Below are positions 1 through 57,499 of a stretch of 64,000 nt of DNA, one piece after another. The notes under the pieces were generated by a model. That model was given only the letters and a program-made list of their open reading frames with translations, ran no database searches and was not told the DNA's origin. The stretch covers positions 9,034,727 through 9,098,726 of the forward strand of contig CM073327.1 of the NCBI GenBank assembly GCA_037043015.1, written 5' to 3'. The position numbers and the translations under genes are program-made. This DNA comes from Bryum argenteum (Eukaryota; Streptophyta; Bryopsida; Bryales; Bryaceae). Numbering within the stretch: the stretch's first letter is position 1; the number at the start of each line of letters is the position of its first letter.

Positions 1-87
1 TAATAGATTATGTGGCTTCGGCAAACGATGTGATTCTTACGTGGTTGTGTACTCTTGTTTCTCTGCTAGATTTTTGGTAATAATTAA

Positions 88-667
88 CCCCTAAATTTCC
101 TTGGTGTTTTTTGGGAGCTTGAATACTCAAAACTGCGATTCTCCACCTCTAAGCACTCGTGGGGGTGTGGACCAATTTCTTCTCCTCTTTTAAGACTTCC
201 AACCGTAAGATCTTGTATCTAAGAATATGCTTGATTACTTTTCAAAAAATTGACCGTTGGATGTTTACCATTTGAGAGATTATAACATTCAAAGTTTGTC
301 TCCCAAGTTTTTTTGGGCATTGCGAAGATTGGTTTTGAAATTTTTGAAGGCTGCCCTTGTAAAATTGGTAAACTTTTTGACTTGAGTCACTTTGAAATCT
401 GAGTAGTGATTTAGTAAAGAACATGTTTCAAAAAAAAAAAAATTCAAAAAAGTTACTTATTTGAGCTGCCCCATCTCGGCTCGCAACCCAAGGATCGTCC
501 TAGAAGACTCAAAAATTGGAATTTGACATTGCAATTTTTGCCACACCTACTTTGCAATGTAACTCACACAATTCCAAAAAATATCTCAAAAATATTCATT
601 TTTACTAAGAAACTAAGGCTGCCCAAAACATCAAAAGACCGTTTCGGTTTTTAAGGAAAGTTAGGGG
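88..667. mobile_element. TTAA-flanked MITE, piggyBac-like (580 bp)
   Basis: TTAA lies on both sides (84-87 and 668-671). The left end reads CCCCTAAATTTCCTT, and the right end on the reverse strand reads CCCCTAACTTTCCTT, one mismatch in 15. No coding capacity is seen. A TTAA target duplication with ends starting CCC is what is known for piggyBac transposons. Assignment to that superfamily is inference, since no transposase is present. Confidence 0.7.
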
Positions 668-671
668 TTAA

Positions 672-2190
672 TATCTAAATCATAAGCATCAAATTCAAAT
701 TGAGAAGACATAATCTTATAGGCAATTTTGGGGGCCATTTCTAGACCAATCAATTTATTGCAAGAAGTAAAGGATGAAAATCTCCACAATCAACAATTTT
801 GAAGGGGAATTTCTCCATTTTTCCTTCTATCAACTTCTATAATTGCTATTCAATGCAATGTGTGCTAAAGTAGAATTTAAATAAAGGATCTCTCCAAGCA
901 ACCCTTTACTTCAAACTTGTGTGGATCAATAATCATTTTTTCCCTTTCCCATTACAAGCCTAATATATGCATTTATAAACCTCCAACACTTTGATGATGA
1001 ATAGAAGCAATATAGGCATAACATTTTTCAATTAGACCTCATTGTTCTCTTTGTATGAAGTTGTGAAACAAGCATTCAATTATTCTTTTTAGGCTTGCTC
1101 AAAATCAGCTACTTTGATTTTTAAATGCTTGTTTCTCATGACTAGAAACACAAAGTGTTACCCTTAAAAAATAGTTATTATTCAGAAATACAACTCAACA
1201 AACTACCATCCAAAATGAACATAAATAAAGAATGTATGGTTCTTCCGAGTTTTGGAATGTCATCTAAAATGATCACATTCAACATTTAGAGTATGTGACA
1301 TATAGACATCTCTACCCAAGCGCCTACCCACAGTCGCACCCCACGAAATCACTCATCAATATGCAAAAATACACATATTAATCATATTAATGTGCACACA
1401 AGAAATCTACTTCTCAAAACAATTCAACACAATATAATCATTGATTGGTACAAGTCACAAGCTAGACACAACCATGGAAGGAACCTAAGCACAAAAATAG
1501 GTGTTTAAGCTTATTAAACTTCGAAAATTTATTACTTATTCACATAGTATGAGAAAGTTATGATTTCACTAACTATTGAAATAGGCTGTAAAAAATCATT
1601 CTCAAATGTGCGGTAATAGGTCTTTCTTTCTTAAGTGGGGCTGCTGCTAATACCGTGGCCGACGACAGTTGCAGCGACAGCAGTCGTCGTAGAAACTTGT
1701 CGCGACGACAACAACAAACACCCACCTCCCTGTCGCCAAATTAGCCCAAGCTCCTGCACTTTGACGATGATTCATTATTCGCATTCTGACCTAAGCTCCC
1801 CGCCATAGCCACGTCCTACTATTTCCTCTTTTCACATACCAGCCCCCTTCGATTTTGAAATTTTTGCTCCCTTCTGTAATTTTACAAAAAGATAATCAAA
1901 AGATCATGCAGCATTGTCCCGCTTGTTTGATGCGGATGAAATGGCAGGGGCATGAAGTGGATCCAATGGAGAGAGAATTGGCAACTCGGTGATCGGTGAT
2001 CGGGAAATTGATTCGGCTATTATTGTGCTTCCATGCTTGTCGGTGACGAGGAGATGTTATGGCCTCGGATTTTAGGTTTTCGTTGCAAGCAGAGATGTGG
2101 TGTCCACAGAGGTTGCCAGTGAAAGACATGATTCTGAAGGTGCTGACAGAGATTCAATGGAAGGAGCTGTTTAGGAATTGGAGTTGAAGA
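672..2190. other. Intergenic and VPS50-A 5' leader, no gene seen
   Basis: AT-rich sequence with no supported coding region up to about 1650. From about 1661 the sequence is shared with the other arm (a GACGACAG-rich stretch at 1661-1712), so 1661-2190 probably contains the promoter and 5' leader of VPS50-A. The reading frames on the minus strand here have no support. Confidence 0.5.
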
Positions 2191-5100
2191 ATGGAGGATA
2201 TTTTTAGCTTAGGGGAAAAGTGGATACGATCAGTGGCATCCTCTCGTGTTCTTACGAGAACTGCATCGGGGCGTCCCGAGGTACTGTACCCTAATTGCAT
2301 GAGTTTGTACTTCCCCTGCACATTAGCTGGATGATAACCAGTGAAATAGTCGACAACGGATTGAGACGCAGCTTATACTTTTCGTATAATTGGCTTGAAT
2401 TGGCTGTCATGAAGTTTTGGCTCTCCGAGGAGTCTCTTTAGCGTAATGAGCGTACGTGGCTGTGCTACGTCTTTAGTTGCATGAAGTTTTTGATTCTCGT
2501 GTATTGAAATCATCTGATGGTGTTATTCTGTACTAGGTCGTAATGACACACATGTCCGTTTTCATCTCTTAGAAGAGGTACAGGCAGTACAGGCATTCAA
2601 ACAATCTAGCTGAATGGTAGTAGAAAGTTGAGTTGATCATGCCTCACCAACACTTTTCTGGATTGCTAGCATTGATTGATGTCTGATTGATGCCATTTTG
2701 AATGAAGAGAATGGAAGAGAATGGAAGAGAATGAATGAAAGTGGAAAGTCTCATGCTGAGAAAAACTGGTTCCTGTGCAGTGGCGGTTTTGCATGTTTTA
2801 ATTCGAGGTTCTCCGTTTGCCCTTGACTTGTTTCAGGTGCCAGCTCGGGCTGCGGCTGCTGCAGCGGTAGCGAGGAAAATCGCCACTCTTGCTCCTCAGG
2901 ATCGGTTATCGCTGCCTGATGGATCCGGGTCTATATTCGCAGCTCGACCTCGTGGAGAGACAGCAGAGGAGCTCGAAGAAGCGTTCTATGAAGATGTATG
3001 CTTACATGAAACATCTCATATACATGATTCTCGCTCTTAGTCTTATTTCAGCGTTTTCATGCTCTCAGAGTGATCTGTTACAGTGTAGTACCACCAATTT
3101 GGAAACTGAATAACCTGAAATTATGTGCGTGATCCTCTGAAGGCAGTGGATTGCTGCATTTTTATTCCTTCTCCGTGCTGTTGCCAAAGAGGAGCAGGTT
3201 TCACTAGGCAGTCCTGTCGTTCCTGGAGTGAACGCATTTCACTCTGGCAGTAGAGTTGGTAAGAGTCTTACATTAGGGTTGGTCCATTATATTCAAGTGT
3301 AGTTTACCCTGCTAGTTGAGGCTCTTCAATCCAGAAGCCTTTGCTATTGAGGTTTTTTTACATGTCATTTCCTATTTTTAGACATGACGGACTCACTAAA
3401 TCATTTTGTCATGCCTTCCTGCATGATGACGCCAACTGTAAATGAATTTGTGTATTGTGCAGAAATTTGATCCTGTAAGATATATGCTGGAGCACACTCC
3501 CTCTGAGAATGTAAATCCCGGCTATTTTGATGGCAAGGTAATCTTGAGTTGTATGTTTGAGTTTCTCTTGCCTTCTGCCCTTTCTTGTGAGGTGCGTATA
3601 ATTGCGATGGTCCTGGATTTGTAGAAGTAATTCATGAAACTTGGCTCGTGCTGTTGAGGACACACTGCTAAAACCTGAGAGTAAAATGGCAGAGTGCTCC
3701 TGCAATGGTGCATTTGCACATGTTAGATGGAATTCAATGTATTAGGGCATATTAGAGTGCAGGTTCATAAATTTTGACGCAAATAGATTCTCATCAGGTT
3801 TTTTTCTGTAGTTGAATGATCGTTATAATAAAATGCTTTCAAACCGAGACTACTTCTATCACATTATCAAATTTTCTGATGAATTAGCGTTGCTTATTCT
3901 TGTAGGTTGGGCAGAGATTGCTGCAGCTTGATGTTGTTAGTAAAAAACTATCTCAGCAAGTCATGGAACACCATGAAGAAATGGGTATGTTGTTGGGTTA
4001 ATTCGTCTGCATATCTGTTTATATATTCCTATATTCAGTTTTTGTTACTTAGATTGTTGCCTTCTATGTCGGACATCACGCTTTTCTAGGAACTGCTTTA
4101 GATATCCTTAAGTCGTGTGATTAGTGATAGCACTAAGTTGATCGTAATTTCACGGTCATTAGCTATTGAGAAGCCGAACCAGTTTGCATTCCTGGTAGAG
4201 TATTCGTCAGGGTACAAATCGTTGCACTCCGTTGCTTTGCTTAGTTACTGTAGACTGATATTCGAACCACGTTGATGACTGTAACATTAACGTGTCTGTA
4301 CTTAATTCCTTAATTATAATATTGCCCATTTTTGTTACAGTGAATGGAATGCGTCTTGTGACAGAGCTGGAGAGAGATCTGCAGATTGCGATTATCGTTG
4401 TCAAGGTTAATATGAGTTTTTGGATGCTTTGGAGGGAATATTTTTCCTAGTGGTGTTCAGTCTTGCTTGTGATGGATTGCGAGGTGTAAAGTTGGTCCAG
4501 TGCTCTGACCACTGCATAGTCATTCTAAATAATGTGTGGAGATCTCTTGCTATCTGTGCCAATTCCTGTCGCCCTTCTTTCATTTGAAGACTTAAAATCC
4601 TGAGTTGCTTCTTCTCCATTTGCAACTGTTAGAGGATTTTGGTACCAAGTGAAGTGTTTGGTGAACATTTCTTTCCAACACTCTCTTTTAATTTCAGTGT
4701 TAACTTTAAGGATCCATGGTGACAGAATGGGAGGCGATATCTATCAAAGGCTATGCATGAGGTTTCCAAGGATCTTGTGGTGGCTGCTAATGTGAAGAAG
4801 AAGCAGGTCTTACTGGTAAGAATCTAATTAGAGCAGCTCCAATGCTCCAAGAATCTAATTAGAGCATTGGCGGTGTATGGAACAGCTAGAATCTGTAGCT
4901 TTTTAGAATTCCATGGCTGTGGTGTGTTCCTGGTTTCGCCGGCTCCATTTTGTGACTCATGTGTGGTACTCTGTTGCAAGTTGTATTGACAAGTGCGTGT
5001 GTGGGACTATGAACATGCAGGATATAGTCCCAGTTTTGGATCGATTACACCAAGCTCTGGATATCAAATCTCGCCTTGACAGTGTGGTGGATGAAGGCGA

Positions 5101-8100
5101 TTTTTCAAAAGTAAGTTTGTAGAAGAAAGCTGAGACTTGTTCATTGGCGGTTTATAAGATTGTAGTACTCCTGGATTGACATTGACATTAGAGTTTCATA
5201 AGCTATGTTGCTAAAGGATTCAAGAGTCGTGTACAATAGTAAGATATTCTTTTCTAAGAACTTTACGTTTCGACACCTCAAATCACATGACCTCCTAACG
5301 AGCAGGCTGTGTTGATGATCTGAATGTACAGGCCCTGCGTATGTGTTCAGAGTGCCTGTTGCTGTTAGAGGAATGTCCGCATGTGACAGCTGTCCAAGAC
5401 ATGAATCAAAACATTGAGGTGAGAGTGATTTTGGTGGTGCTCTTCTTGCTCAATCCTTCCTTTGGTATATGGACGTGCAACTGATTTCTTTAATGTGGTT
5501 GACAATATACAGGAATGGTTGCAAAGAACCATACTGAAAGTGGACTCGCTGCTGATGGAAGTTTGTCGAAAATTCGAGGCAGAGAAGTACAAAGTTGTAA
5601 GTACAAGCCGTTTGCCTGCGTAAGCATGTTTTTTGTTGTCCTCCGGGAGCCGGATCAGCGGTGGCATTAACAGAGGTAGAGACGAGTATTAGGTCGAACT
5701 GTGTTAAGTAAAGGATATCGATCACTGATGATAACGATGAAGATATATGTCGAGGTGCGGTTTAGTCATCATCGTTTTGGTCCTTGCTGTGTACGTGGTC
5801 CAAGTGAGAACGCAGGCTGATCTTTTGGTGGATGTTTGCAGATTGTTAATGCTTATACTTTGTTGGACGACGTGAGTAGCCTTGCTGACAAGGTGCAAAG
5901 CTTCTTTGCACAGAGTGTTGTGACGGAGACACATGACGTGCTGAAGAACCTGGTGTTTGAGGTAAGCATGCTCTTATTTGGTCTCATTATTCCTCCTGCT
6001 AGACATACGGCACATATTGGACACATGTATACATGTTTTTGTAAGTATGTACTTTCAAGATGTAATAAGGCACAGTTGTGGATAAGTGGTTGGGAATGGG
6101 TCTGTCCACCTTCGTAATGCTGAGGTCAATCTCCTCGAACTACGTACATAATATACTTTCGTTATGTAGATTAGAACTTGCAGCAAGAAGTTTAGCTCAC
6201 AGCATATGAGACTGATGCTTGCAGGGAGAGGATGCGCAAACAGCACTAATGAAGAGCAGGTACGGAGCCCTCCTGAAGTTTGAATCATGAGGCAGTTTTG
6301 CGATGTATTCTGTCAGTAGTATCACGGTATCTTGTCATCTTGGATGTGACGTACACGCTCACTGGGTTCGAGCGCATGATTATTCCTTACATGCAAGGGC
6401 TTTCTTTGTTGATCCCGTAGGTCTGCATTTCCAGAGTTCAAGCTTTATTAAATGACTCGTGTTGGTGTTCGATAGATTTGGAAGTTCTTGGGCAGGGTGT
6501 CACTTGTCATAGAATTATTAGAGCTGTGAGCTGCTCAGCGAATGGCTGTTAACCTGCCTGTTGCTGCAGAATTCCGTATCGGGACTTATGTATGCAACTT
6601 CCTGAGGCCAAGTTCCAAAGATTTCTGTGCAAGACTCTGGAGGTCCTGTTCGACCTTATGTGCTCGTACTACACCATGATGACATGGCACCAAGTATCAG
6701 AGGTACGCCACATATGAGATAGGCTGTTATCGCTTTTACTTAGACCTTTGCATTCTATCAAGTCCGAGTCAACACCTTAAACTTAGCAGAGTTGAATGGC
6801 TTCTGAGGGTTTGAAACCATTGGATTCTTTGAGGATCTAGCTGTGCAGTAAACACCCATATCCAGGTAAATTTACATGGCTGTGTTTGTTGAAGGGCTTG
6901 AACTGTTTTTCTGTTCACCTTTTACAGCCTGCTGCGGTGAAAGATCCTCCTGAAGATCCTAAACGCGAGAATCGCTTGAGTGGAAAGCATCACCGTCGCT
7001 CAGGCAGTCATGGAGATTTGAGTCACGTCGTGATTACAGGCAGCAGGCATGTCCGAACAGGATCGCTGTCAGCGGAGCTTTTCGCCACACCTATGTCGTC
7101 ATTATCTATCCATCCAAACAGGCTGCTGCATCGGAGAAGAAGGTCTTCGAGTGATAACACAGAGGTGTACGAAAACGGGAGTGCAACGAGTGGGGAGGTG
7201 GACGTGGATTTTGTAGAGAATAGTGAAATCAGCGATGATCTTGGAAGGCGAGAGGAAGTGGTGACGGCGACTGTTGCTCGGGCATTAGAGCGTGGGCGGA
7301 AGACTGTGGCGGAGCTGGCTGCACGTCGAGTGGCAGCATTGCTGACAAACGATGCAATGTGCCAGGCAAGTCCTTACCAGTTTCTACAGAGCTTGGATTG
7401 GGTGAACAAGTTCATACTGGCAGGGGAGTCATTCTGCGGGGCGGAAGCGGTGTCATTACGAACGAAGATGACAAAGCTGAGCGAGCAGTACTTCGGGGCG
7501 TACCACTGTCAAAACCTTGAAGTAAGGAGCTCTGGGGTTGAGATGGTGGATGTTGTGTCGTGCTAGTCAAGGGTGGATGTGATGCTGATTTGTTGGTAAC
7601 TGCAGATTCTGAGGATGGTCGTGGAGAAGGAGTTGTGGCAGCCGCTGTCAACACTGGCGCTGAAGTCGGTGAACCTGGCAGGTCTGACAGGGCACGGTGC
7701 ATCTCTAGTTCGGGCTTCTGGATCAAGTGAGGGTGGTGGAGGAGGGAGCAGTGTGAACCCTGATGGTGGAAAGGCGGGGTTTGGGGAGTGGTTGGAGAGA
7801 GGAAACCCATTTGCGGAGAAAGCAGAGGCGGGCCCCGGTAATAGTAAGGTAGTGGAAGGAGACAGTGTGAAGGTGAATGATGCGGAGAAGGTAGGGGCTG
7901 TGGCGAACGGCGGGCCGAAGGCAGAAGAGGAGGAAGAAGAGGAGAACGAGGATCTGCTAGCTGACTTCATAGACGAGGACAGCCAGCTACCAGGTCGCCT
8001 GTACGATAGTTATGGTAAAAGTAGTAGCGTGATGGAAGCGAAGAGCACTCAAGGTTCTAGCGAAGATAAAGGTGTAGTAGTTACAAATTCATCGGTGAAC

Positions 8101-11100: not shown

Positions 11101-11211
11101 AAGTCACAAGTAATAGGGCTGATCAACCTTGTGGCAACTACGAATAATTGGAAGAAGAAAACGAGGGTGGACATGATAGATAGAATAGAGGCTGGCGATT
11201 TATTATGCTGA
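2191..11211 (+). CDS. VPS50: Syndetin / VPS50, EARP complex subunit (copy A, 25 exons)
   Basis: Exons: 2191-2280, 2837-2995, 3463-3537, 3906-3984, 4341-4405, 4726-4815, 5021-5110, 5332-5418, 5513-5596, 5842-5961, 6225-6259, 6570-6702, 6928-7521, 7606-8108, 8240-8303, 8448-8544, 8685-8881, 9333-9458, 9585-9655, 9987-10049, 10161-10233, 10475-10594, 10756-10833, 10927-10977, 11092-11211. They sum to 3264 nt, 1087 residues, with every phase matching. Syndetin replaces VPS54 in the EARP tether (with VPS51, 52 and 53), which acts in endosomal recycling. Family signatures include VPARAAAAAAVAR after a short first exon, KFDPVRYMLE, QQVMEHHEEM, MRLVTELERDLQIA, NGRRYLSKAMHEVSKDL and VQSFFAQ. The N-terminal Vps54-like region is about residues 80-365. 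A low-complexity Ser/Arg then Gly/Glu-rich linker covers about 370-735, and the C-terminal DUF2451-type domain is about 855-1087. The start was chosen because exon 1 matches plant syndetins and is conserved in copy B. Confidence 0.93.
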
Positions 11212-11648
11212 AAATGGATTGATGAGAAGTAGGATGAGTAGAGGTACGAGGCATTCAATTACTTTGTGATACAAGAAATCATGAAGAAATGGCTTTTGGT
11301 CCAAAGAGGGCGTGCAGTGGTCCGAAGGCAGGCATTTGTGATTGATCCTTGTCCTCGTTCGATTAGGAGTATTTCTAGTCTGATTGCGGCAAGACATTTG
11401 TCCTTTCTAACGCGATGAATGCAGAATTACCTAAAACTCTGACGAAGTAATCAAGCCTGACAGCGACTTCTGTCCACAATTGGCACAACACGACCATGAT
11501 CAAAACGGTTAACCATTACTTTTTCATTTCATGTGCACTTATTTTCCTGATCCATCTAATTCTTGTCTGCAGCCATAATGATCCCAACCAGTGTCAGCTT
11601 AAATTATTGTGATCGAGGTTTAGACGCAGGTGCATTGTCCGAGCAAAA
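11212..11648. other. VPS50-A 3' region with a block shared between arms
   Basis: No gene is seen. About 80 bp at 11222-11310 is nearly identical to the equivalent region after VPS50-B, consistent with a shared 3' UTR. The segment 11295-11456 is the single-copy counterpart of the sequence duplicated in tandem at 19481-19803. Confidence 0.6.
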
Positions 11649-12200
11649 GGTGGTGGTACCCGTCAGAACGCCCTCCCCGTCCATCACCGCCTGCCGGAAG
11701 AGGCTGGCGGGACGTTCATCTAGCAGGCCACCCGCAAGCGGATGACCGCGGCAATTGCGCTCAGGACGGAGGACCCTGGATCATCGTCCGGAATGGGGTT
11801 CTTGTCTATGTAAGAATTCACAGATCAGATGTACGCACTACAGAACAGATCCTGTTCAAGTACAGTCGTACTAGGGGGTTGGCCACTTACCATCTTCATA
11901 CCGTGCTAAGCTAACTCTGGTAAAAGGAATGGGTCAATTTATATCATGATCTGCTTTGAGTTGCATGTGAAACAGGTGATAGCGTGTTTTACCACTTGCC
12001 AATGCCTGGGACTGTTGTCGATCCAGAGTTTGAACTGTAGTAGAATCAATCTATTACAGTCCCAAGAACTACAGGTATTAAAAGATGTACTCAGTGCCAA
12101 TTAGTGTATGCAACAAAAGTGAAAATGAGCACTTGTGAGTTGAAGCAGATATTGACATTGCTAATCAGTCACCACTCCTTATAAAGGACCAAGATTACAT
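11649..12200 (-). other. Conserved intergenic block downstream of C2-A (decayed copy)
   Basis: This pairs with 18770-19284 in the other arm and is about 90% identical by eye over its best ~300 bp, better conserved than most introns. On the minus strand a frame open from 11824 runs 34 codons and stops at 11720-11722. Relative to the other arm it has a one-base loss near 11733 and a two-base gain near 11680. It could be a relic exon of a third duplicated gene, a non-coding RNA, or simply a shared UTR. I do not recognise the encoded peptide. Confidence 0.45.
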
Positions 12201-12281
12201 GTGTATATTTGAAGATAGAGGGATAAATTCACATAACCTAGCATCTACCAAAAATTTAGAAAACCTGAAATTTGAAGAACT

Positions 12282-14146: not shown

Positions 14147-15287
14147 TCCGGAAAGAAAATGGGAAACCACCAAGTCTGTAAAGGTTCCGAGTGTACAAGA
14201 CTAGTCGTTGCGGAAGCTCTAAGCAGGCAAGATCGAGGTGAGAGTTCTGGTGCTGCAGAGAGTTGCGAATGCTATGCAGAATGGAGAGATCCAGAAGTTG
14301 CAAATGGAGCACGAGGCGGAGAAGACGGAGAAGGTGTGCGACTTGATACTGTTCACGACCAGCGGGTTCTAAATACTTTGACGAAGACGAAGATCACTAT
14401 TATAAGCACACACGGTAAAGTGCGTGTCCGCCGTCTGCACCGGAGACACGGTATCGATTCTACCCAGGGATTAACGACTCCGGTACTGGTTCTAACCAGG
14501 GGTTAAAATTCAAGTGCTGCAGCCTTAGTAGCTTTTCAGAGAAAGATGTTTGCAGAGCCTTCACGGATCCTTCAAAATGAACCTTACTTCCACTACAATA
14601 GTGGAAAGATGCAATGTTTCCACGAAGAATGTCTCATTTTACCAAACTTGGTAGCATGATATCATGATGTGTCAAGAAATAATGAGACAATCGTGGTAAC
14701 TCATTGTAGAAGAGTCCAAAAATGATGATCCCACTTGCTCTGATTTTGCACAGCAATCTGCTTGCACTGGTAATATCCCTGTAGATTTCACGTGCTGAAG
14801 ATCGAGCCATTATTGAGCGCCTTACCATTTACACGCAAGTCAGCGATGGGACCGTGTGGAAGAGCAGCCATTTGAAAGCAGCGTCTCAAGTCTCGTCCGC
14901 GTTGACTCCTGCCCCATTTGCCCAACTGCCCACTAAGCTCGGCAGAGGCGGACGCCTCGTCAGCCTGAATTGTCGGTACACGTTATATCAGAAATCGGTA
15001 AGAAATCGGTAAGCCAATCCCCGCCAAATCCGCGCACAGTTTCCCCTTCTTCGTCCCTTGGATGCTTTTTTTGATGTTAGTATAACATTTTCTCGTTTTG
15101 CTTGAACTGATCAACCCCTAAATTGGAGTGTGTACGTCATTCTTTGAATTCAAATTCCTTACCAATTGTTAGATCATGGTGCTCAAAGTTGGAAAAAGGG
15201 TAGGGCCAGAATATCATTTTTGGGAAGTAGATATGACTTCAGGCTCTTCGAATGATCTTTCTGAAGTGAAAAGTGGTTGCCATTTAA

Positions 15288-16197
15288 CCCTTAATCGTCT
15301 AAGGTGACCCGAGGGGTCCTTTTCCAACAGAATCTCCTCTGTAGCTCTCAATGTACTCAACTTTTCACTTATATTTTGATGTCAAACTGGTCACCTTCTC
15401 CTGATGCATTCAAAAAGTGAAATTTTAGAATTCAAATCACAATTTGTATGAGTGATTTTGTGCATTGAGAGGATTGTGGTAGGTAGGTTGGGGTTGTACA
15501 TAACCTTGTAGGAGGTTGCAAGCTCATCATTGATTGAATCATTCATGATGCCCAAGTTCAAAAAGTGCACTATTCATGATGCCCAAGTCCAAAAGATGCT
15601 GTGATCCAATACTGGGCTGCCCAAATCCATATAGCTAGACGTTTAACCCCTAAGAGCCCTAAGAGCCCATTTTATGGTCGATCCCGATTTTTGAGGAGCT
15701 GTACCTGGATAAAAAAAGATTTTTTTTTGGATTTTTTTTTAACATTCCAGAAGTTTGGTAAGTTGGGAACCACATCCAATTTACAAAACTCTGTTTGGAT
15801 TCATAGATTGTTCATAATAAGCCTTCAAACACAAACAGGGCAAAGTTTTGTTAGTGTAAGAAAACTTACTATTTTGGGAAACTAATAAGGTTCCTCATAG
15901 GTTACTTGTGGCCTCTCTTCATTTTATCATATAATATGAGATTTTAGCCAATCATAGCAATTTCCAATTTCTAATAATAGAAATTACATTTTATATTGAT
16001 TTTCAAAGTTTTACTCTCTTTATTTAATTATTAAGGAAATCTTACTTATTTTAGGAAATTTAACCGTATAGATCTAATTTAGGGTTTAAGGTCTTTATAC
16101 TATCTTTGGACCGCTACTTCATAAGGGTTACCGAATTCATATTTTATAACACATCTAAGTTTTTCTTCAAACCCCTCGGGCCTTTAGGGGTTAAGGG
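15288..16197. mobile_element. TTAA-flanked MITE, 362-bp family, split by a second element
   Basis: TTAA lies at 15284-15287 and 16198-16201. The left end is CCCTTAATCGTC; the right end, completed by the three bases 16195-16197 after the nested element, reads GACGTTTAAGGG. Removing the nested element and one TTAA leaves 362 bp, exactly the length of the related copy at 50582-50943, to which it aligns along the whole left ~320 bp. Confidence 0.85.
15647..16190. mobile_element. TTAA-flanked MITE nested inside the previous element (544 bp)
   Basis: It is inserted at the TTAA within the GTTTAAGGG terminus of the host element. TTAA copies sit at 15643-15646 and 16191-16194. The ends are CCCCTAAGAGCCC and, on the reverse strand, CCCCTAAAGGCCC. 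There is no coding capacity. Confidence 0.85.
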
Positions 16198-16948
16198 TTA
16201 ACTAAAGTGAGGTTGTCAGTCGACGAGTTCTTTTTGCCATATATCGAAAAGCAGACATCAACTATCAGAAGGTAAACTTGGCAAAACTGAGTTTGCGTTT
16301 AAGAAGCTAAAGCCACTTGTCCATTGGACGCAGACAAATCTGATGGAGTTCTAAGATATTATCTTGGAAACTTCACATTCTTTCGCAATCAAGGTCCCAG
16401 TCAGCATGTTGAGAGCATGGCCAGATTCAAATGATGCATGCGAGTGGCCATTGTGACTTGGAAGCGCAATGAAGCCAAGAGCAGAGGGGCACATTTTCTT
16501 TAACTAAATTTCACAAGAAGCTGATTGCCCAATTTAAAAATTCATCAAAAGTTGAATATTATAGCAGAAACTAGAAACACTGAATACGATCTTTACTGTG
16601 GTGAACCCCATATTGGTATGAACTCCAGTCTTTTCCTCCGTATGAAGGAGGGCACTCCTTCGACAAAAACACGGCTATGTCTGCCCTTTATGATGTCAGC
16701 GGACTTATACACTTAGAATAGTGATACTTCCATCTTATTTAAAGTATTTGAAACTTCTGGTAGCAAATCTCTCCGCCTCTTGTTTCAATATCGTTTCCTC
16801 TTCTTCTCTCCACCTGCAACTCTCGGATCCCACAGTACCTGCATTCCAACCTTCTCTGTAGCACAAGCAACTCTTCCTCCTGTTCCTTTCTTGCTCTGCT
16901 TAGATCTTCCGTACACTAGAATCTATACAGACTTGGTTGTTGCCCAAA

Positions 16949-18713: not shown

Positions 18714-18769
18714 AGTGTTCTAAAGTTTTGGTAGATGGAAGGTTCTATATATTGTTTTCCTTCAATTTC

Positions 18770-19284: not shown

Positions 19285-19480
19285 CCTTTTTATGCTCCGT
19301 CAAATGACCAGGGTTCGAACATTGCTTCACTGTGAAATCTGTCACAGGTCAGGATCAGTTTCTCACCAGATAGAAATTAGATGGATCGGGACAACAATTG
19401 CTCTTGGACTGAAAGAGTAACAGGTAATCGATTCGATGATGGTCGCGTTCTTCCAATTGCAGAGAGGAACTGCTATCAGG

Positions 19481-19803: not shown

Positions 19804-19896
19804 GACCAAAAGCCCTTTCTTCATGATTTCTTGTATCACAAAATAAATGAATGCCTCGTACCTCTACTCATCCTACTTCTCCTCAATCGATATTCA

Positions 19897-29830: not shown

Positions 29831-29831
29831 A

Positions 29832-36310: not shown

Positions 36311-36904
36311 ATTTTGAAATTGTTTCCATTCAGTTTCAGAATGATTGTTAACTACAATAAGAGAATAGTATTTGTAAAAATTCAGTAGCTCTCAAGAGTA
36401 GGTTTCCTTCTTCATGTGGCTAAGATTTGCTACTTAAGAGGTACTGGATTTCAAAAGCATCTTGTACAAGAAACCCTAAGACTTGAAGTATTTGATTTGC
36501 TGTGAAAAAAACCCTAGTACTTGTAGTATTTGATTTGTTGTAAAAGATGTCTATGATGATGTCTGCAAGATGTCTTAGAGCATGTCTATGAAGATGTCTA
36601 AATGTGTTGATGGAATTCTGTTTTGGAAGGTGGGACATAAGGGGTCGGGGCAGCAAACACGATCTGAGGCCGCGAAGCGACATGCGTGCTTGTAGGTGAG
36701 TGGAACAAATGTATGCATAGATGTCCCTAACATTGTTTTTAATGATGTCTAGAAGGATGTTTGAAGAAATGTCTAAGCAGACGTTTGCAAGAATGTCTAA
36801 CTGTGTCGATATCTTGAGGTTAGGAAGTAAACCATCTCAACCTAGGTAGTGCAATTAAATGGAATTAAATCAGAATTCTTTTATCTTTACAAACCCTTCT
36901 TTAA

Positions 36905-37878
36905 CCCCTAAACGCCCGAGCCTATTTTTACCAAAAAAGCACATTTCCATAGAAATCGTTATAGATGAAAATCAAGAGAAGCTATTAAGATCTCAACCGT
37001 ACAAACTTGTAATAGACTTATCCAAGATCATGTGGACCAAAATTTGAGTCATGAGGCCTTATAGATCGGGAGATCGTAACATATTAATATCAAAAACAAA
37101 CTACAAAATTTCATCATTTTCACTTTGAGGTGGAAATGCTACCAATATACCTATTGCAATGAAAAAATCACCAACGAGAAAGATGTTCACCTTCATCTTA
37201 ATAAGTCCTTTACCCAACAAAAATTCATCAAAAAAATATCTTGGCTCAAATAAACGCCATGCAATGGTAAAAACTACCAAACATTTTACAAAGGAATAAT
37301 GGTCCAAAACTAGACCCTTTGCATTCAATTTCATGCCTTATCTTCAAAACATCTTCGATCTTGTTAAGGTTTCTACCACTTAGACTAGACTCTAATTGGA
37401 GGCCATTCCAAAAAATTAAGTTGAAATCCAACGGTGGATGAGGGAGATATAGCTCCTCAAATATCATCCATTTTCTCACTTTTTTTGTTGACAAAACATC
37501 ATTGCAAATCCAATAGCAAAATCATTTGGATCAAAAAACTTCTCACTACAAAGTTGTTAAGAATCACCTTAAGATCATGACCATGAAAAAAAATATCATG
37601 AAAAACTATTTTTAATTTCACATAATTGGCTTGCAATGGTAATACATGCCCCATGCTTGGAAACCCAAAAACAAGAGCTGTCTTCACTAAAGTGCATTTC
37701 ATTAATTCATAATTTGTTGTATGGGCTTGCAAATTCTACAACACAAACTAGACTTGATTTGGAACCTAACCCAAGTGATTTCATCCAAAACGGACCTCGG
37801 ATGAAGAAGATACGGCTCTTCAAAGTTTCTGGATGTACATCCAAAATGTCGTTTTTCGACATCGTGGGCGTTTAAGGG
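36905..37878. mobile_element. TTAA-flanked MITE, piggyBac-like (974 bp)
   Basis: TTAA at 36901-36904 and 37879-37882. The ends are CCCCTAAACGCCC and, on the reverse strand, CCCTTAAACGCCC. It is inserted in CACTA element 2. The interior is unlike the 362-bp family. The reading frames inside are short and unrecognised. Confidence 0.8.
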
Positions 37879-38952
37879 TTAAATGCAGTTGATATTGGCT
37901 TATTGAATATGTGTAGCGGCGGGACATGCACATGACCATACGGGTATCAACACCAAGCGATGGTAGTTGAGGGACTTACAGAGTTCAGATTGTGGGTGCG
38001 TAGTATGTCGTAGTTGTTGACAGGCGTATAAGTAAATACTCTAGTTTTGTGTTATCTGAGGTTTTAATGACCTAAGCAGTATATGTTTGACTCATACTTT
38101 TTGATGTGACAGTGTTTACGATTGATGTTATGTGAGACGTCTGTGTATTATAGATCTGATGACTATATAAACATCTAAAAATGTCATCCTAGATGTCCTT
38201 TCATGTGCCCAAAAAACATCAATAGTAACATTGTTGCAAACATCATGTTTAACACAAAACGTTCACATCAATGTCCTACGGGATGTCGCTACAAACATCC
38301 GAGCAAACATCACAAATTTGATAAGGACATCAACCTAAACATCATTCTACGCACTAGAAACATCTTATAAGACATAAAAATTGTCTTCTAATATATTTTG
38401 AAAGACATTGCATACGTCTTGCAAGACATCTTGTATAACATCTAAGATGTCTTGCAAGACATTTAAGTCGTCTTACGTCATGTCTAATACTATCATGAGA
38501 GGAGCATGAAACCCCCCGAAATATGCTGACGTGGCATGCCACGTCATTTTCCCGGGTCCACGTCAACTTTTCCCGCATGCCACGTGGGATTTTCCCGCGT
38601 GCCACTTTGGATTTTCAAAGGGTCCACGTAGGATTCTGGCGCCGCCATGTCATCTTTCGTGGGACCACGTAAAATTCCACATCATGATGAATTTCATCCC
38701 CATGTGGCACTGCCCGTTGAATTCAAGCTGATGTGTCATCTACGTGGCACCTACGTGGCACACTTTTTACCCTTCCAAAATTACCTTAAGACATCTTCAA
38801 TCTTAAGACATTTTCCTGTCTTTTTAGACGTCTGCTTAGACATCTGTCATGTCTAGGATGTCTTATCGTCTATAAGACATCCGAATTAATGTTTATGATG
38901 TCTTTTTAGACATCATTTACAACATCACTAAAAACGCAGGTTTCTTATAGTG

Positions 38953-40140
38953 GCAACTCGGCATGTCTCCTTGGGTTTTAGGTCGCTTGGAAGGTTCAAT
39001 ATCAAGATGACTCTTCTTCGCATATCCTCCTCCATTGGCTCGGCGAAGTCATAATCCAGTTCAAGCTTAAAGTCTTCCAAGCTTCCGGCTTCAATCCGAG
39101 CACGTTTGGTCAGACTTTCACTGGAATTTCCTAAGTGGCCACTTTCGGGAAGGAACTCAATCCTTTCCCTTCTTCTTAACGGCCTCTACGACAAACTGAA
39201 GCTCTCCAATATGCTCCTTTTGCTTCTTCAATCTTCACTAGGGTGAACTTCCGTCTTTTTGTTCCATGGGTAGTAAATCCCTCATGGACATCAACCGCCT
39301 CTCTTTTGCTCGACTCGTCTTCTTGTTGGCTTCCTCCATACCCGATTGTAGCCCGTGCAACTTCTCTTGTTGGAATGCTTGCCTCGCCATTCTCTTTAGT
39401 TCTTCCCAGTTAGAGAGTTCTTCCATCTTCAACGTTCTCAACTTCTCTGGAAATTTAATTCTCTCCGTTGTCCAAGTATGTTGCGAGACCCTTTCTTACC
39501 TCGTTAACCCTTAAACGTCAAGCCCCTCTGAAAATACACTCGAAACCAAGCCCGAGGGGCGTGCTTGGACGTTTCAGGGTTAAGCTTGATCTCCAAGTCA
39601 TCTTCCTACGTTCGTTAACCACTCTCATTTGACATACAAATGGAACAAGAAAGGAGTCAAGGGTGTCGGTTTAATACTACTCAAATTACCTACTTCCTAG
39701 GTAGAGATTTTGTCGAGAATGACAATGTTCTCCAACCGCACTCTACTTTCCTAGATAAAGATTCGAGGATCGCTTGAGTGAGCTTCAATGGTCAGCTTGT
39801 CCGGACTAAAAATAGGCACCATGAACGGCAACAAATGCCTCTCTCTATGATTGACACGAGTGTCAACTCGGAAACCGTCGTAGGCACGTAGTTGTACAAA
39901 GAACTTCCGCCTCAAGTCTTTATTTCCCTGTATCAATTCAAACTTTTGCGGGTTCTCCAAGAAGTCGTAAACATGCATCCATATCATCGGCCCCACTCCG
40001 CATACTTCCCCGGATGGCGTGCTTGGAGAATTCCGGGTTATCCACCTTTTGCACCACGTTCAGCACCAATTGCTTGCTCGTTGTATCCTTCAATGTGAAC
40101 CGTAAAATCACCATGTACGTGGCAATTGGTTACAAGGGGT
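38953..40140 (-). pseudogene. Decayed gene of unknown family, central part
   Basis: This continues, across CACTA element 2, the minus-strand gene at 31626-34335. Open stretches read as plausible protein: about 39996-39751 (FLENPQKFELIQ, KLTIEAHSSDPRIF, with one frameshift just upstream joining TLKDTTSKQLVLNVVQK) and about 39514-39238 (MEELSNWEELKRMARQAF, KTSRAKERRLMS). Another runs up to the CACTA junction (LELDYDFAEPMEEDM). Frameshifts, a 72-bp hairpin insertion and the two CACTA elements show it is dead. No family is recognised. Confidence 0.5.
39508..39579. mobile_element. Miniature 72-bp TTAA-flanked foldback element
   Basis: TTAA at 39504-39507 and 39580-39583. The ends CCCTTAAACGTC and CCCTGAAACGTC (reverse strand) are followed by further pairing arms, so nearly the whole element folds into a hairpin. 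It is the smallest member of the TTAA family here and lies inside the decayed gene. Confidence 0.75.
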
Positions 40141-43410: not shown

Positions 43411-44752
43411 TAGACCTAATAGTAAGCTAGAAAAACAGAAAAAAAATCAAACTGCCTATCAATAGAGTGGCTTTGTACATTGATTTCCAATATGCCTCAT
43501 AGAATGCAAGCAGTGATTGCAGCTACGGGTGGTAGTACTAGATGGTAGTATGCGCCAAAAAGCTCTCTTGATGTACATTTTCACAACTTCATAAAGCAAA
43601 CTTGTTACATCATGAAACTAGATTCTACTATCTTTGCAATACACTTTACGGCTCAAACATCTGTTCATTTTTGAAACCGCTAGAGCTTTTTGAAGCTCAG
43701 TGATTCCCAACATTGATTCAGTTTGAAAAAAATAATCAAATTATTTCTATATCCAACTGTACAGTACCCAAAAAATTATTTACCTTTATTTCTTGAATCG
43801 TCGCAACAAGTTTCTTGTAGTAGGGTAACTCAAAATGAGATTCTGACAAGAATTTCAAACACTTAGCTACGAGGTTTAGTGGACAAATGAAAGCCATAGT
43901 TGTGACTCACGAGCTTGATATGGGTACCACTAAGACGCGTCTCATTATGTGTGACCTATGTGTAATTCATTATATATGTGCCAGAAATTCCTTTTTTAAC
44001 TACATGTATACAAGTATAGCCATGTCACCTATAATACCATCTGGTTAGAATAATTTTTCAATATCAAAAAAGTAGTTTAAAAATAATCACACTATTTTGG
44101 AGGGGTACCCATATCAGACCCTTTCCCAACTGCTAAACTTGGGATGTTCCAAAATGTCAACGGCCACAAATTTGAGATTTTTGAGAGACGGCCTAAACTT
44201 GCAGTATGGTAAGGTGTCCTATAATGGCGCAATTCTCAGCACAGAAAATCTACTGGAATGTTGCCAGTGCACGCAATTTTGGTGCATGGGGAAAATTAGT
44301 AGAAAACTAGAGCAAGTGGAATCATCATTTTTCGACTCTTCTACAGTGAGTAATGAATTTTTAAAGATGGAAATATAGGTGTTCCTAAAATGGTGCCCTA
44401 AAGTGACGCCCTATAATCTTTGCAGAGTGTACATGGTACTATTGTAAGGAGAAGCTATTATGTACGTGACAGTGAAGATTACTAGGGCTCCATTTTCGGC
44501 ACTGCGCCATTTTTGGCTGCTCTACCATAAGTACAACAGAAATGTTTGCACCAACATCAACTCCAAACATGCCACCATAACAAAGACTTTTTCTGACTTG
44601 CAATTATAAAATGGATCCTTGGGATCTAAGAATCATATTGGATTGAGTGCTGGAGTGTTTGTCCTAGATTTGAGTGTCGATGGGGGTCAAAAATTTTGGG
44701 CATATGGTTTGTGCGCATTGTCTGTGCATGTCTATGTACGTTGTACAGTGAG
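43411..44752. other. AT-rich sequence without a recognisable gene
   Basis: A 93-codon frame at 44097-44378 has no recognisable motif and no context. Nothing else is supported. Confidence 0.4.
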
Positions 44753-45382
44753 GTCCAACATGGAATGGCGTTTTTGGTTTTGCAGTGGGAAAAAAATCAA
44801 GTCAGCCTACTTTGGAAGCCTCTAGAGAGCTCAAAAATTGGTATTTTACCTTGAAAATTTTACCATAGGCTTGAAATCAAGTTGTTAGTATGCCTACCAA
44901 GTTTCAAAGTTTCATGGCAAATGGGCCATTTTTAGCCATTGGGAGGGTGTCAAAGTTGGTTGGAGTGGAGTTGATTTCTACAAGCATACCGCAAAATAAC
45001 ACATGTTGGTAGATTGGGAATATCTTTTTTTTTCACTAATATTTTGGACTTCAGATTTTTACCATGTATCAATAACACAAATTGTGTTCTACCACAAAAA
45101 AATCAAAGCAAGGAAAAATGATCTCAATTCTTGGGAGGCTGTCAAAGGTTGGCAGGAGTGAAAAATAATTTACAACTACCTATCTTGGTAGATTTCAAAT
45201 AACTTTTTTCTGTTGAATTGTTTGGCTTTGAAACTTGGTAGGCATACTAACAACTTGATTTCAAGCCTATGGTAAAATTTTCAAGGTAAAATACCAATTT
45301 TTGAGCTCTCTAGAGGCTTCCAAAGTAGGCTGACTTGATTTTTTTCCCACTGCAAAACCAAAAACGCCATTCCATGTTGGAC
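44753..45382. repeat. Perfect 157-bp inverted repeat with 316-bp loop
   Basis: 44753-44909 and 45226-45382 are exact reverse complements over 157 bp as read base by base; weaker pairing extends a few bases outward. A transcript would form a long perfect hairpin. It could be the long terminal inverted repeats of a foldback or Mutator-like element, or a hairpin small-RNA locus. No transposase or target duplication is evident. Confidence 0.85.
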
Positions 45383-45548
45383 CCTACTGTACATATTTTT
45401 TTGGTTTTTGCATGTTTGTTGTGCACTTGATAGAAATGGCGACAAGGACTTCGAGCACTTAAAAAAGAGGAGTCATTGTGGGGGATGCGGAGTGGTGAAA
45501 TGTCAACTTATTGTATTGCAAAGTTGGAAATGAGTTGGTCAATTGTCT

Positions 45549-47687: not shown

Positions 47688-49838
47688 CTACTCATGAGCA
47701 ACTTTGTCACTCGCCCAAGTGAAGTCCGATGATGATGTTCCACCTTGCGACGGCGGAGGCAGGGGGTATTGTGCAACAGGACCAGGCCTAGTGACGGGCA
47801 ATTGAGGCAAATTCACCAATGCCCCAGCCTCCCATGCCTGGAACCACTGGTTCACCACTCTCATGGAAGGCCGCTCACTTGGATTGGGAAGGCAACACAG
47901 CAACCCCATCTGCAAGACGCGTCCCACCGTTGACATCCACTGGTAGACATCCGACAGCTGAATGTTCAGCTTAGGATCCACCACTGTGCTGATATTTCCA
48001 GCTTCATGCGCCCGCCACACCCTGTCTAGCAACACGTAATCCTCAGGATCCACACCCGGCCGCACTTGCAATGGTCGTCTCCCGGACACCGTTTCCAGCA
48101 CAAGGATCCCGAAGGCGTACACGTCAGTCTCCTTCGACGCTCTTCCTGAGTAATGCAACTCCGGCGCCATGTAGCCCAACGTCCCCGCCATCAAGGTGGT
48201 CTTCTGCACCTTCTCATGATCCACCAAACGGGCAAGTCCGAAGTCGCCCAAGTGGGCGTTGAAATCCCCGTCGAGCAGCACATTGCTGGACTTGATGTCA
48301 CGGTGCAGAACGCATTGGACCAGATCTTCGTGGAGGTATGTCAGGCCAGCGGCCACCCCGGCCAAGATGTGATGTCGCACGTTCCAGGATAGGCCGGAGT
48401 CAAAGACGGCCTCAGTGCCGTCCCGGTGCAGCCATTTGTCCAAGCTTAAGTTGGTCATGTAGTCGTAGACAAGGAAAAGGCCTTGTTTAGACTGGCACCA
48501 TCCCCTCAGATGTAGTAAATTCCTGTGGCGAATCTGGCGCAAGCTGTTTGCTTCTGCTTGGAAGCTCTGGATAGCGTGACCGTTCTGTTGCTTGATGCGC
48601 TTCACCGCCACTAGGGTGCCGGATGGTGGGGTGCCTTTGAAGACGTCACCGAATGCACCGGAGGAGAGGAGCTCGCTGCTGGCGAAACTGTCAGTCATAG
48701 CTGCGAGCTCGTCGAAGCTGTAAGGACGAGAAGATGGATCTTTGAGATCAACGGACGTTCCTTCCTGGCGATTCTCCGAGGTATCCTTGTTCCGATGCGT
48801 GCGATATACAAACATGTAACAGCAGAACCCCAGGACACCGCAAATGGCTAAAACAACCGCAGTAGAAACCCCAATGACTAGTCCAAGTTGAGAATCTGGT
48901 CCTGGATCCCGCGAGACACGGAGAGGCGGCTCAGGTGAGGGATTTGGAGCTCCAGCAGGGGTGGGATCACTACTGTTGAAGTTCCAGGCATACACTTTGT
49001 GAGTCTCAGGGTTGATGGATAACCAGTATGTTTTGCCTGTTAATGCAACGTACATCTCATCATCCAACACACCACCCAATGAAAGATTGGGAACTGTAAT
49101 GACTGGAGTAAAAGGTTTTCCACCGGTGTCCAGTGTCCCACTCCGGAAAAAAACCTCTAAGGTTTTTGTTCTACCATCGTAATCAATCCAGGCTGAATAC
49201 GTCCCCACGGTTCCGCAAAAGTAAACACACTCGTCAGTATAGAGAGAGCTAGCACATAGATTGTGCTGTGGAATAGTCAACAGTTTCCCATTGTCGGTGA
49301 CCATCACACCGATGGTGCTGTCACTGGGATCCGCCATATTGGTTGAAGTGCTATACATGAGCATGCTGCCAAACTTCACTACAAAATATCGATCTGTATA
49401 ATGCGGAGCATAGTCATAAGAACACATTGTACGTCTGCCCTCTACACTTGATAAACTTAGAGCGCCTACAAAGCTGAATGTCATACCCTCCCCACAGCCG
49501 TCGCTTTTATTCTTATAAGATCTGAATGCGAACGTGAAGGAAGCGCTAAACGAAGCGACTGTACCAGTTACTTTGTCTTTCAACTGCACTTTGTCTGAGT
49601 GGACAATTCTCGCACAGTGTTCCATAAAATCAAAGTTCAGATCGTACGAAGAAGAATAAGAGTTGTAATACACATCATCTATCGTCACTATCTTCGGGTC
49701 TGCACTTGGAAACGACCGAAAGGCGAAACTGCTGTTCGTGATTCGACCTGCAACTGTAAGAGCGTCATCACACCAAATAACAAGCACCAGTAGCACGACA
49801 TTGACAGTCACGGTTGGGAGCCACATCATTGTACTCAC
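47688..49838 (-). CDS. L-type lectin receptor-like kinase, single exon (716 aa)
   Basis: A membrane receptor kinase. The signal peptide is about residues 1-30. The legume-lectin ectodomain spans about 33-290 and ends in the typical hydrophobic-Tyr-x-Trp motif (KVYAWNFN). A proline-rich juxtamembrane stretch is followed by a transmembrane helix at about 318-345, a kinase domain at about 385-670 and a short Pro/Ser tail. Kinase landmarks: glycine loop SGAFGDVF (first Gly of the motif is Ser), catalytic Lys413 in VAVKR, HRDIKSSNVLL with Asp514, DFG at 532-534, and AGTLGYMAPE. This is an RD kinase with all catalytic residues, so it is likely active. Length and lack of introns are normal for the family. 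The ligand is unknown; the lectin domain need not bind sugar. The start is the first ATG of the frame and precedes a good signal peptide. Confidence 0.95.
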   Translation of the reverse strand: MSTMMWLPTVTVNVVLLVLVIWCDDALTVAGRITNSSFAFRSFPSADPKIVTIDDVYYNSYSSSYDLNFDFMEHCARIVHSDKVQLKDKVTGTVASFSASFTFAFRSYKNKSDGCGEGMTFSFVGALSLSSVEGRRTMCSYDYAPHYTDRYFVVKFGSMLMYSTSTNMADPSDSTIGVMVTDNGKLLTIPQHNLCASSLYTDECVYFCGTVGTYSAWIDYDGRTKTLEVFFRSGTLDTGGKPFTPVITVPNLSLGGVLDDEMYVALTGKTYWLSINPETHKVYAWNFNSSDPTPAGAPNPSPEPPLRVSRDPGPDSQLGLVIGVSTAVVLAICGVLGFCCYMFVYRTHRNKDTSENRQEGTSVDLKDPSSRPYSFDELAAMTDSFASSELLSSGAFGDVFKGTPPSGTLVAVKRIKQQNGHAIQSFQAEANSLRQIRHRNLLHLRGWCQSKQGLFLVYDYMTNLSLDKWLHRDGTEAVFDSGLSWNVRHHILAGVAAGLTYLHEDLVQCVLHRDIKSSNVLLDGDFNAHLGDFGLARLVDHEKVQKTTLMAGTLGYMAPELHYSGRASKETDVYAFGILVLETVSGRRPLQVRPGVDPEDYVLLDRVWRAHEAGNISTVVDPKLNIQLSDVYQWMSTVGRVLQMGLLCCLPNPSERPSMRVVNQWFQAWEAGALVNLPQLPVTRPGPVAQYPLPPPSQGGTSSSDFTWASDKVAHE

Positions 49839-50581
49839 TGAAATATCGCCGAGCGCAATGCGAACTTCTAGACGATAGCTAGACTAGTGTTACTTCGAAG
49901 GCAACCATGCAATGTCTTGAAGGCTCTAAAGTTCTATCAACAACACATTCAACCAGAGAGCAGAGGTCTCCTGCAACCTACACAACATCGCACTCAGTTC
50001 AAGCAGTCACCCGTTTTGAAGTCTAAGTCTACCACCAGAACAATTTTTCCAGAGTTGATCAAGTAACATGTGGTTTACATGGAATAATTAGTATTAACTC
50101 CTGTGAAAATCTTTTTAGATCAACATGGTTCAGCTGTAGGATAGGAATCGGTAGCAATTCTCGGGGTACAGAACGATGATTCGATCACTTGTAGTAGGTA
50201 GCGAGCTCCGAACTAAAATTGTATGTGGAGTAGATTCGGCAGCCAACTTGAGTTTGTCCTTTTATGTACTCTCTACCATTTAAATTATTAATAGGATGGC
50301 CGACACAGTGAAAGAGCTCAAAGCTGGGTTGACTTTCATGATTGTATCTCCTTCGATTGATAGATACTAACATTGATTGGTTAAAATATTAAATAGAAAA
50401 TATAAGCTGGTTTTCATTCGATGGTTTGTAAATTAGGATAATCAGGAACCACACTAAAACAGCTGGCGGTATCAAAACTACTGTGTGTCTGCAGACTTTG
50501 TGCATTTCGGCGGTAGGTAGGTACGGTACAGTACAGTCCATGCATACCCTCCGTACACTTAGATGGTTTATTTCTGGTTGA
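49839..50581. other. LecRLK 5' flank
   Basis: Upstream region of the receptor kinase, expected to hold its promoter; no element could be assigned. A GTACGGTACAGTACAG run occurs at 50521-50536. Confidence 0.4.
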
Positions 50582-50943
50582 CCCTTAAACGCCTAAGGTG
50601 ACCTGAGGGGTCCTTTTCCAAAAGAATCTCCTGTGTAGCTCTCAATGTACTCAACTTTTCACTTATATTTTGATGTCAAAGTGGTCACCTTCTTCTGATG
50701 CACTCAAAAAGTGAAATTTTAGAATTCAAATCACAATTTGTATGAGTGATTCTGTGCATTGAAAGGATTGTGGTAGGTAGGTCGGGGTTGTACATAACCT
50801 TGTAGGAGGTTGCAAGCTCATCATTGATTGGTGCATTCATGATGCCCTTGTTCAAAAAGTGCACTATTCATGATGCCCAAGTCCAAAAGATGCTATGATC
50901 CAATTTTGGGCTGTCCGTTTCACACCCCATGGGCGTTTAAGGG
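50582..50943. mobile_element. TTAA-flanked MITE, 362-bp family, second copy
   Basis: The left flank is TTGA (a mutated TTAA, 50578-50581) and the right flank TTAA (50944-50947). The ends are CCCTTAAACGCC and, on the reverse strand, CCCTTAAACGCCC. It aligns to the element at 15288-16197 along its length and has the same size once that copy's nested insertion is removed. Confidence 0.85.
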
Positions 50944-52315
50944 TTAACTCCTTACTAAGAGCCAACGGGGTTTGAAGACATGAATACGTACTATTAAAGT
51001 ATGATGAATTTTGAAAAGTGAAATGACTTTTTCGAAAAGCTATGAAAAACTCTACAATCTGTGAAAAGTTTCAACATCATAGGATCCATATTTATTAACC
51101 AAGAGCCTCACGATTTGGTGACAATTTGGCTCTTTTCAACTGTAGAAGTTAAAAGATGTAAACCTAATGCTCATGTAAGAACCAACCAAAGGGGAAACAA
51201 GAATGATATCGTATAGCTCGGGAATACACCCGTGTTACTAACACATGTAAAGACTTAAGATGCTCTACAAGCAATTTTGGCCAACAATGGAGAATGGAAG
51301 AGAGGATCATTGCAAACAAAACTAGAATTAAAATGCGCATAACAATCCATTATGTACCCCGTTTTATTGCACAATATGATGTAATTGATTGAGCCAACAA
51401 TAAAAGACATTGCATGAAAGGCACCACACCAATGATGTGATGGTGTAATCAAATGCTCCGGAGCTTTAAATGAGCAGCCTACCATAGCCTTTAATTTGAG
51501 GAATTGAAGACGTAAAGCGAGTCGCTAGCCCCCTCCACACCCAAAGCCTCTCTTGCTAACTCTAAAGTTTCAGAATTGAAGTTTACTGGCACCCATCTTT
51601 TTTGCATAATTAGGTTATTGCAAATGAGCAAAATTCATACTTAGGCAACATAAACTAGCTTCACAAGTATTCTCTAAAGGATAGTTAAGTGACAATGTGT
51701 ATGTATGTTAGGGTCTGAATCCAGCAATTTTTCACAAGGTATTGAGCATTTCCAAACCTTGCACAATGTAAATCAAGTTGAGCGTTACTTGAGAATGCAA
51801 CTTGTCCCCCAACACTGTAAACCCCATCATGGCTATGCTTAGCAACGTTTTGGAGCTTGCTTAAGCAACGTTCCTCAGAAAACAAGCAACGTTATTCATT
51901 ATCGAGCTGAAAATGTTGCTCAAATTCTTGAAAACGTTGCTCAAGCAAGTTCCAAAACGTTGCTAAACCTGAGCAACGTTTACACAAAAACAACGATTGT
52001 AACATTGCAAACCCACCCCCCCCCCTCTTTTGTTTTGTAGTAGTGATGATCGTACACGAGATGAAACAATTCACCAACACCCGCATCCCATTCCATTACT
52101 GAAGATTCAGTTATTATTCTCCATAGAGTGAAAGAGGGTGATTACTTACTCGTCTTTCCAGTACAAGCTCTTCAGGAGCCAACTTCCTTGCATCAATAAA
52201 TCTCTTTCGTAAAGTCTTTCGAGGATCTTCAAATCTGAAATCAGTAACAATCCCGTTGAATTCCTTTCATAGACTATGATTCTTCCTTACCAGAAAGGGA
52301 AAAAGCATTCATCTA
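50944..52315. other. Intergenic; includes a CACTA-like terminus near 52045
   Basis: No gene is supported. Read on the reverse strand, 52045 begins CACTACTACAAAACAAAAG. The adjacent 51840-52000 carries at least seven copies of AGCAACGTT or its complement in both orientations, the arrangement of a CACTA end with subterminal repeats. The opposite end was not found. Confidence 0.45.
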
Positions 52316-57495: not shown

Positions 57496-57499
57496 ATCC

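Follow-up and report, generated by a model that had tools for sequence, protein, structure and literature searches.

TTAA-flanked miniature elements in a Bryum argenteum genomic window are very probably non-autonomous piggyBac transposons

The six TTAA-flanked elements found in a 64,000-nucleotide window of the moss Bryum argenteum (by "window" we mean the whole stretch of DNA analysed, C7:9034727-9098726) are, with a probability of roughly 0.96, non-autonomous piggyBac transposons (MITEs) that are moved in trans by piggyBac transposases of the same genome. The piggyBac reading had first been proposed from their flanks and CCC ends, and it is now supported by genome-wide end counts, by empty sites with a single TTAA, and by transposases. 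According to the mechanism that we propose, transposases from 4.5-5.7 kb elements elsewhere in the genome would recognise the MITE ends in trans and cleave at their CCC termini, after which the element would integrate at TTAA, duplicating it. If the biochemistry of Trichoplusia ni (T. ni) piggyBac, as given in the available part of PMC7351741, carries over to the moss, then movement would be cut-and-paste, with a hairpin intermediate and seamless (footprint-free) excision.

Elements, ends and target sites

When coordinates, ends and flanks were read again, all six elements had the inverted CCCYTAA-type ends and TTAA flanks attributed to them in the preliminary description (Table 1). The flanking tetranucleotide is TTAA in 11 of 12 cases and TTGA in the remaining one (50578-50581), and the ends read CCCCTAA or CCCTTAA with one exception, CCCTGAA on the right of 39508-39579. 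In the window there are 12 matches to TTAACCCYTAAACG at no more than two mismatches, whereas 100 shuffled sequences had 0.56 on average and never more than 3. End pairs facing each other at a spacing of 40-1500 bp form seven combinations in the window versus 0 in 300 dinucleotide shuffles; element 39508-39579 lies outside this strict pattern, its right end being CCCTGAAACG. The TTGA flank need not trap its element, because the available part of the T. ni work describes TTAA hairpins and an excision for which no specific flank is required (PMC7351741); a later mutation explains this flank as well.

Table 1. MITEs of the window (positions within the window) and complete piggyBac elements elsewhere in the assembly (by contig)
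Feature	Location	Strand	Remarks
580-bp MITE (88-667) with both TTAA flanks	84..671	.	ends CCCCTAAATTT / CCCCTAACTTT
Outer 362-bp MITE, main part up to the hit TTAA, with left TTAA flank	15284..15646	.	alignable with 50582-50943 after removal of the inner element
Inner 544-bp MITE at TTAA within the outer right end	15647..16190	.	TTAA on both sides
Duplicated TTAA, last 3 bp of outer 362-bp MITE and right TTAA flank	16191..16201	.	
974-bp MITE (36905-37878) with both TTAA flanks	36901..37882	.	similarity copies; empty site in L042
72-bp MITE (39508-39579) with both TTAA flanks	39504..39583	.	full-length copies elsewhere in the genome
362-bp MITE (50582-50943)	50578..50947	.	flanks: left TTGA, right TTAA
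E10	C1		5,195 bp with one TTAA; complete; frame of 897 codons stop to stop (L010)
E09	C4		4,946 bp; complete; frame broken into two
E24	C2		4,465 bp; complete; frame of 915 codons stop to stop (L024)
E38	C7		5,708 bp; complete; frame of 941 codons stop to stop (L038)

The six insertions fall into five size classes: 580, 362 (twice), 544, 974 and 72 bp. The stretch 15288-16197, described earlier as one element, is not a 910-bp element but a 362-bp element interrupted by a 544-bp element. The outer element, 15288-15646 plus 16195-16197, aligns over its full length with the second 362-bp copy (332 of 361 aligned bases identical). The inner element landed on the TTAA within the outer right end (TTAACCC-TTAA-ACG), and removing it together with one TTAA restores the outer end TTAACCCTTAAACGTCT; the nested pair documents the duplication of TTAA directly. 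Because the end CCCTTAA itself contains TTAA, elements can insert into one another's ends, as seen here at 15647-16190. Across the genome, the corresponding junction TTAACCCTTAACCCYTAA occurs 210 + 221 times, against 0 + 32 for the reversed control. Seven nested junctions were examined: in three (the window, L043 and L063) an outer end like that of the 362-bp element reappears when the inner element is removed, in L057 no such end does, and in three others the inner end was not found. The inner 544-bp MITE has a relative in L058, with 92.6% identity over 544 columns.

One could take TTAACCCCTAAACG for interstitial telomeric DNA, since the 7-mer CCCTAAA, the plant telomere unit, is contained in CCCCTAAACG. 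The ends, however, face each other, bound families of fixed length (974, 362 and 72 bp) and are flanked by TTAA, which leaves a telomeric origin of these ends exceedingly improbable. A few of the 431 junctions may nevertheless be short heptamer arrays, as for two overlapping TTAACCCTTAACCCYTAA hits at C2:17616647 and 17616654.

In the whole assembly (258.8 Mb in 25 contigs), exact TTAACCCYTAAACG was found at 9,205 sites (4,588 + 4,617), compared with 7 (3 + 4) for the reversed control, while CCCYTAAACGYCC was found at 6,293 sites (reversed control, 515), 5,636 of which (89.6%) have an exact TTAA directly before them (reversed control, 0). The 974-bp family yielded 5,956 first-look candidates, which are unconfirmed; the best 40 of them, the window copy included, match at 96-100% with the query covered wholly or minus one base, and two more scored rows are partial. 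Twelve copies, again including that of the window, were fetched by similarity and thus independently of the end pattern, and all 12 have TTAA on both sides. For the 72-bp element, the best 40 of 448 candidates, window copy included, all cover the whole 80-bp query at 94-100%. The 300-bp flanks of the 12 974-bp copies and of six 72-bp copies showed no similarity between copies, the sole matches lying within a tandem repeat at L050.

Empty sites were sought with 30 end pairs, some of which represent one element in two loci, by joining their flanks and comparing the result with the window and the fetched loci. For 36905-37878, L042 contains a paralogous site without the element, spanning 124 columns at 96% identity and carrying a single TTAA. 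The 974-bp copy in L050 lies inside a tandem repeat with a 63-bp unit, the other units of which carry a single TTAA, and the L053 copy sits in its own relative, paralogs of which (at about 77-84%) likewise have one TTAA. The L043 match proved to be the end of a 362-bp element, a candidate in L054 (77% identity) has CTAA rather than TTAA at the site, the matches of L032 and L051 were uninformative, and the remaining pairs gave no match spanning the join. Non-TTAA duplications at empty sites would have spoken against piggyBac; where an empty site is clear, it has just one TTAA. Together with the fetched copies and the genome-wide ends, these sites establish one piggyBac feature, the TTAA target-site duplication, and terminal inverted repeats starting CC(C/T), a second such feature, are present as well. 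Sequence alone cannot separate insertion at TTAA from a TA duplication that needs a T before and an A after it; between these two readings, the identity of the transposase decides.

Transposases and the MITEs with matching ends

A genome search with PF13843 (piggyBac; DDE_Tnp_1_7) gave 116 scored places among 776 candidates, with a best E value of 7e-82, and found none in 14 control genomes. In 30 of these loci (L009-L038), the three catalytic aspartates of the DDD triad are present in 30/30, 29/30 and 30/30 domains, the exception being L015, which also carries a stop. Average-linkage clustering of the same 30 domains at a 45% identity cut-off gives six groups. Seven transposase loci were read further, and in four of them (E10, E09, E24 and E38) both CCCYTAA ends and TTAA flanks surround the PF13843 frame, so that the longer member with a DDE_Tnp_1_7 transposase between similar ends, which the preliminary description proposed to look for, does occur. 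E13 and E33 have one exact end each, and no ends were found at the locus of E29.

The frames are about 900 codons long from stop to stop, and with putative starts up to about 425-447 residues precede the catalytic domain without a Pfam match. A Pfam scan of four frames (L010/E10, L024/E24, L029 and L038) detected PF13843 in all, accompanied in L029 by a sub-threshold DDE_Tnp_1, and no Harbinger domain in any. A C-terminal tail rich in cysteine and histidine is present in L038, E10 and E24; that of L038 aligns with the piggyBat tail below significance, and no Pfam zinc-ribbon match was found. Against PDB, the L038 protein matched piggyBat (9c0f, 1e-25) and T. ni piggyBac (6x67, 2e-23), with the aspartates aligned. 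As a separate observation, the transposase frames of E10 (C1), E24 (C2) and E33 (C4) are each preceded by a small frame that is conserved among the three loci (around NFRFLFRRQVA...WWPDE) and may encode a second protein or form a first exon.

These proteins bear directly on the alternative that the elements are PIF/Harbinger (Tourist-like) MITEs. Such MITEs are abundant in plants and make a 3-bp TTA/TAA duplication, and both trinucleotides lie within TTAA. Yet only the 4-bp TTAA (or its inner TA) is directly repeated on the two sides of the elements, never TTA or TAA, so that the 3-bp TWA duplication is not seen. Moreover, the transposases between these ends belong to PF13843, and the autonomous Harbinger relative that would have contradicted piggyBac is absent from the four scanned frames. 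We therefore regard a PIF/Harbinger origin as very unlikely and retain the piggyBac reading.

Next, we asked which transposases share end sequences with the MITEs. Over subterminal positions 13-36, 12 MITE ends were each set against eight ends of complete elements (96 comparisons, 2,000 shuffles each, uncorrected). In these uncorrected comparisons, 17 of 24 positions agree both between the 580-bp right end and the E38 5' end and between the 362-bp left end and the E24 5' end, and 16 of 24 between the 362-bp right end and the E10/E09 3' end. The 72-bp right end agrees with the E10/E09 5' end at 15-16 of 24 positions and with the E38 5' end at 13, the 974-bp ends match E38 more weakly (14 and 12), and the 544-bp ends match none of the eight. 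The motif GGGCAGC lies within 60 bp in 14 of 92 distinct ends, related ends being counted separately (shuffle maximum, 2). BLAST aligned the 580-bp MITE with E38 both in its interior (window 195-323, 133 columns, 77%, E 9e-21) and at its right end (56 bp at 82%, E 2e-9). Against the four complete elements, the 362-bp family matched over 36 bp at one end only, and the 974- and 544-bp families gave no match. Judged by this subterminal and BLAST end similarity, MITEs with matching ends exist for two transposase clades, and the same likenesses suggest which transposase would move which MITE.

Recent movement and relation to known piggyBac systems

The elements might be piggyBac-derived fossils of a family that no longer moves, a possibility to which we give somewhat less than even odds. 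The 12 fetched 974-bp copies have a mean mutual identity of 97.25% over 66 pairs, i.e., they differ by 2.75% on average, and the family overall may be more diverse because these copies are the nearest to that of the window. The window's 72-bp copy differs from the form found in L063 at 3 of 80 positions, and the transposase frame of E09 is broken. On the other hand, a pattern count found 126 places within three mismatches of the L063 form (control, 0). The form itself recurs with zero mismatches at 10 places among the matches listed (100 of 126), and a second form, differing from it at two positions, is identical over all 80 bp, TTAAs included, at 28 places. E10 and E09 share 97.75% identity across 4,534 columns, and 93 of the 116 scored PF13843 domains are free of stops. 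These near-identical sequences suggest that some MITEs moved recently or still move, and the two groups of identical copies point to recent movement of even the very short 72-bp transposon.

It is tempting to go further and to propose that the piggyBac population of this moss is large, diverse and still moving, and that one of its transposases carries the 72-bp element to more than 100 places. We consider this about as probable as its opposite; the diversity in question is that of the six transposase groups defined by the 45% cut-off on only 30 sampled domains. If true, the moss would provide a natural plant piggyBac system together with an extreme of short cargo, on a par with the short segments that piggyBac excises in ciliates. 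At 72 bp, the element is below the length over which DNA bends easily, and its family caps at this value the minimum length that a piggyBac-type element needs in order to spread. Genome engineering in animals relies heavily on piggyBac; natural plant members that may be active would offer candidate tools for plants and material for comparing how ends are recognised. In addition, the ends, which number in the thousands, are ready insertion markers.

Among better-known relatives, T. ni piggyBac has ends that start with CC, piggyBat is a bat element, and insect piggyBac MITEs are short, non-autonomous and associated with a TTAA duplication. The moss elements share with T. ni piggyBac (6x67/6x68; PMC7351741) the TTAA duplication and the DDD catalytic domain PF13843, and its cysteine-rich C-terminal tail may have a counterpart in the tails described above. 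They differ from it in the length of their frames and the long putative N-terminal part, in ends that read CCCYTAA, and in that several clades occur together in one plant genome. PiggyBat is the best PDB match by sequence, yet a distant one, and its C-terminal cysteine-rich stretch aligns with L038 without significance. Compared with the insect MITEs, the host here is a plant, and one family measures only 72 bp.

Contrary to the preliminary description, which knew the superfamily mainly from animals and fungi, piggyBac is not absent from land plants. In the accessible parts of the respective papers, it appears among the superfamilies present in all groups studied, land plants included (PMC4438587, Table 2), with 1,230 copies in C-fern (PMC6890710), and by name among plant DNA-transposon superfamilies (PMC10794571). 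As far as those parts go, the C-fern and survey records share superfamily and plant host with our elements but are catalogue entries, whereas here there are complete elements, empty sites and links from MITEs to transposons. A literature search on piggyBac with mosses, bryophytes or plants returned no moss piggyBac title among the matches listed, which is a weak guide to priority. The elements are notable for their abundance, for the indications that they moved recently and for the 72-bp family, and the finding bears on the patchy occurrence of piggyBac across land plants.

Other features of the window and the assembly

The ends are about seven times rarer on contig C1, the largest (44.1 Mb), with 100 sites up to 34.15 Mb against 744 predicted from the genome mean. 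On the same contig lie 5 of the 116 best-scored PF13843 domains, 0 of 90 LHC matches and 0 of 14 dynein heavy-chain matches, and it may be a sex chromosome or an otherwise gene-poor one. Genome-wide, the plant U3 snoRNAs, the chlorophyll a/b proteins and the dynein heavy chains, which flowering plants are not known to have, fit a plant whose sperm swim. After a 620-residue chain (9vfj), an LHC protein has its best PDB matches in 7xqp and 8htu, structures from Physcomitrium patens. The long contigs extend to C11, and 11 chromosomes are reported in three moss genome notes.

Within the window, an inverted segmental duplication (2172-14272 / 16841-28719) consists of segments that are about 73-90% identical, and each of its arms carries a Plant_U3 snoRNA (11657-11869, minus strand; 19066-19277, plus strand). 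The MITEs lie outside its arms or, as for the nested pair, in its spacer, so that the arms offer no comparison of presence and absence. The inverted repeat at 44742-45393, with 168-bp arms that are 99% complementary and 316 bp apart, has no obvious target duplication; it was considered as a further family member and rejected, having neither a TTAA flank nor CCC ends. Two related arrays (29832-31633 and 56525-57512) show self and mutual matches at many offsets of ~100 bp, and a 731-codon open frame at 47688-49883 (minus strand), read by eye, resembles a lectin-type receptor kinase. Finally, a 1,647-bp element at 32243-33889, bounded by CACTACAACAAAT / CAATACAACAAAT and flanked by TGG on either side, would by its ends be a CACTA-type transposon; its empty site lies in the window itself, where its flanks 31837-32241 and 33890-34053 match the contiguous stretch 57805-58374 with the junction CTGACTC.
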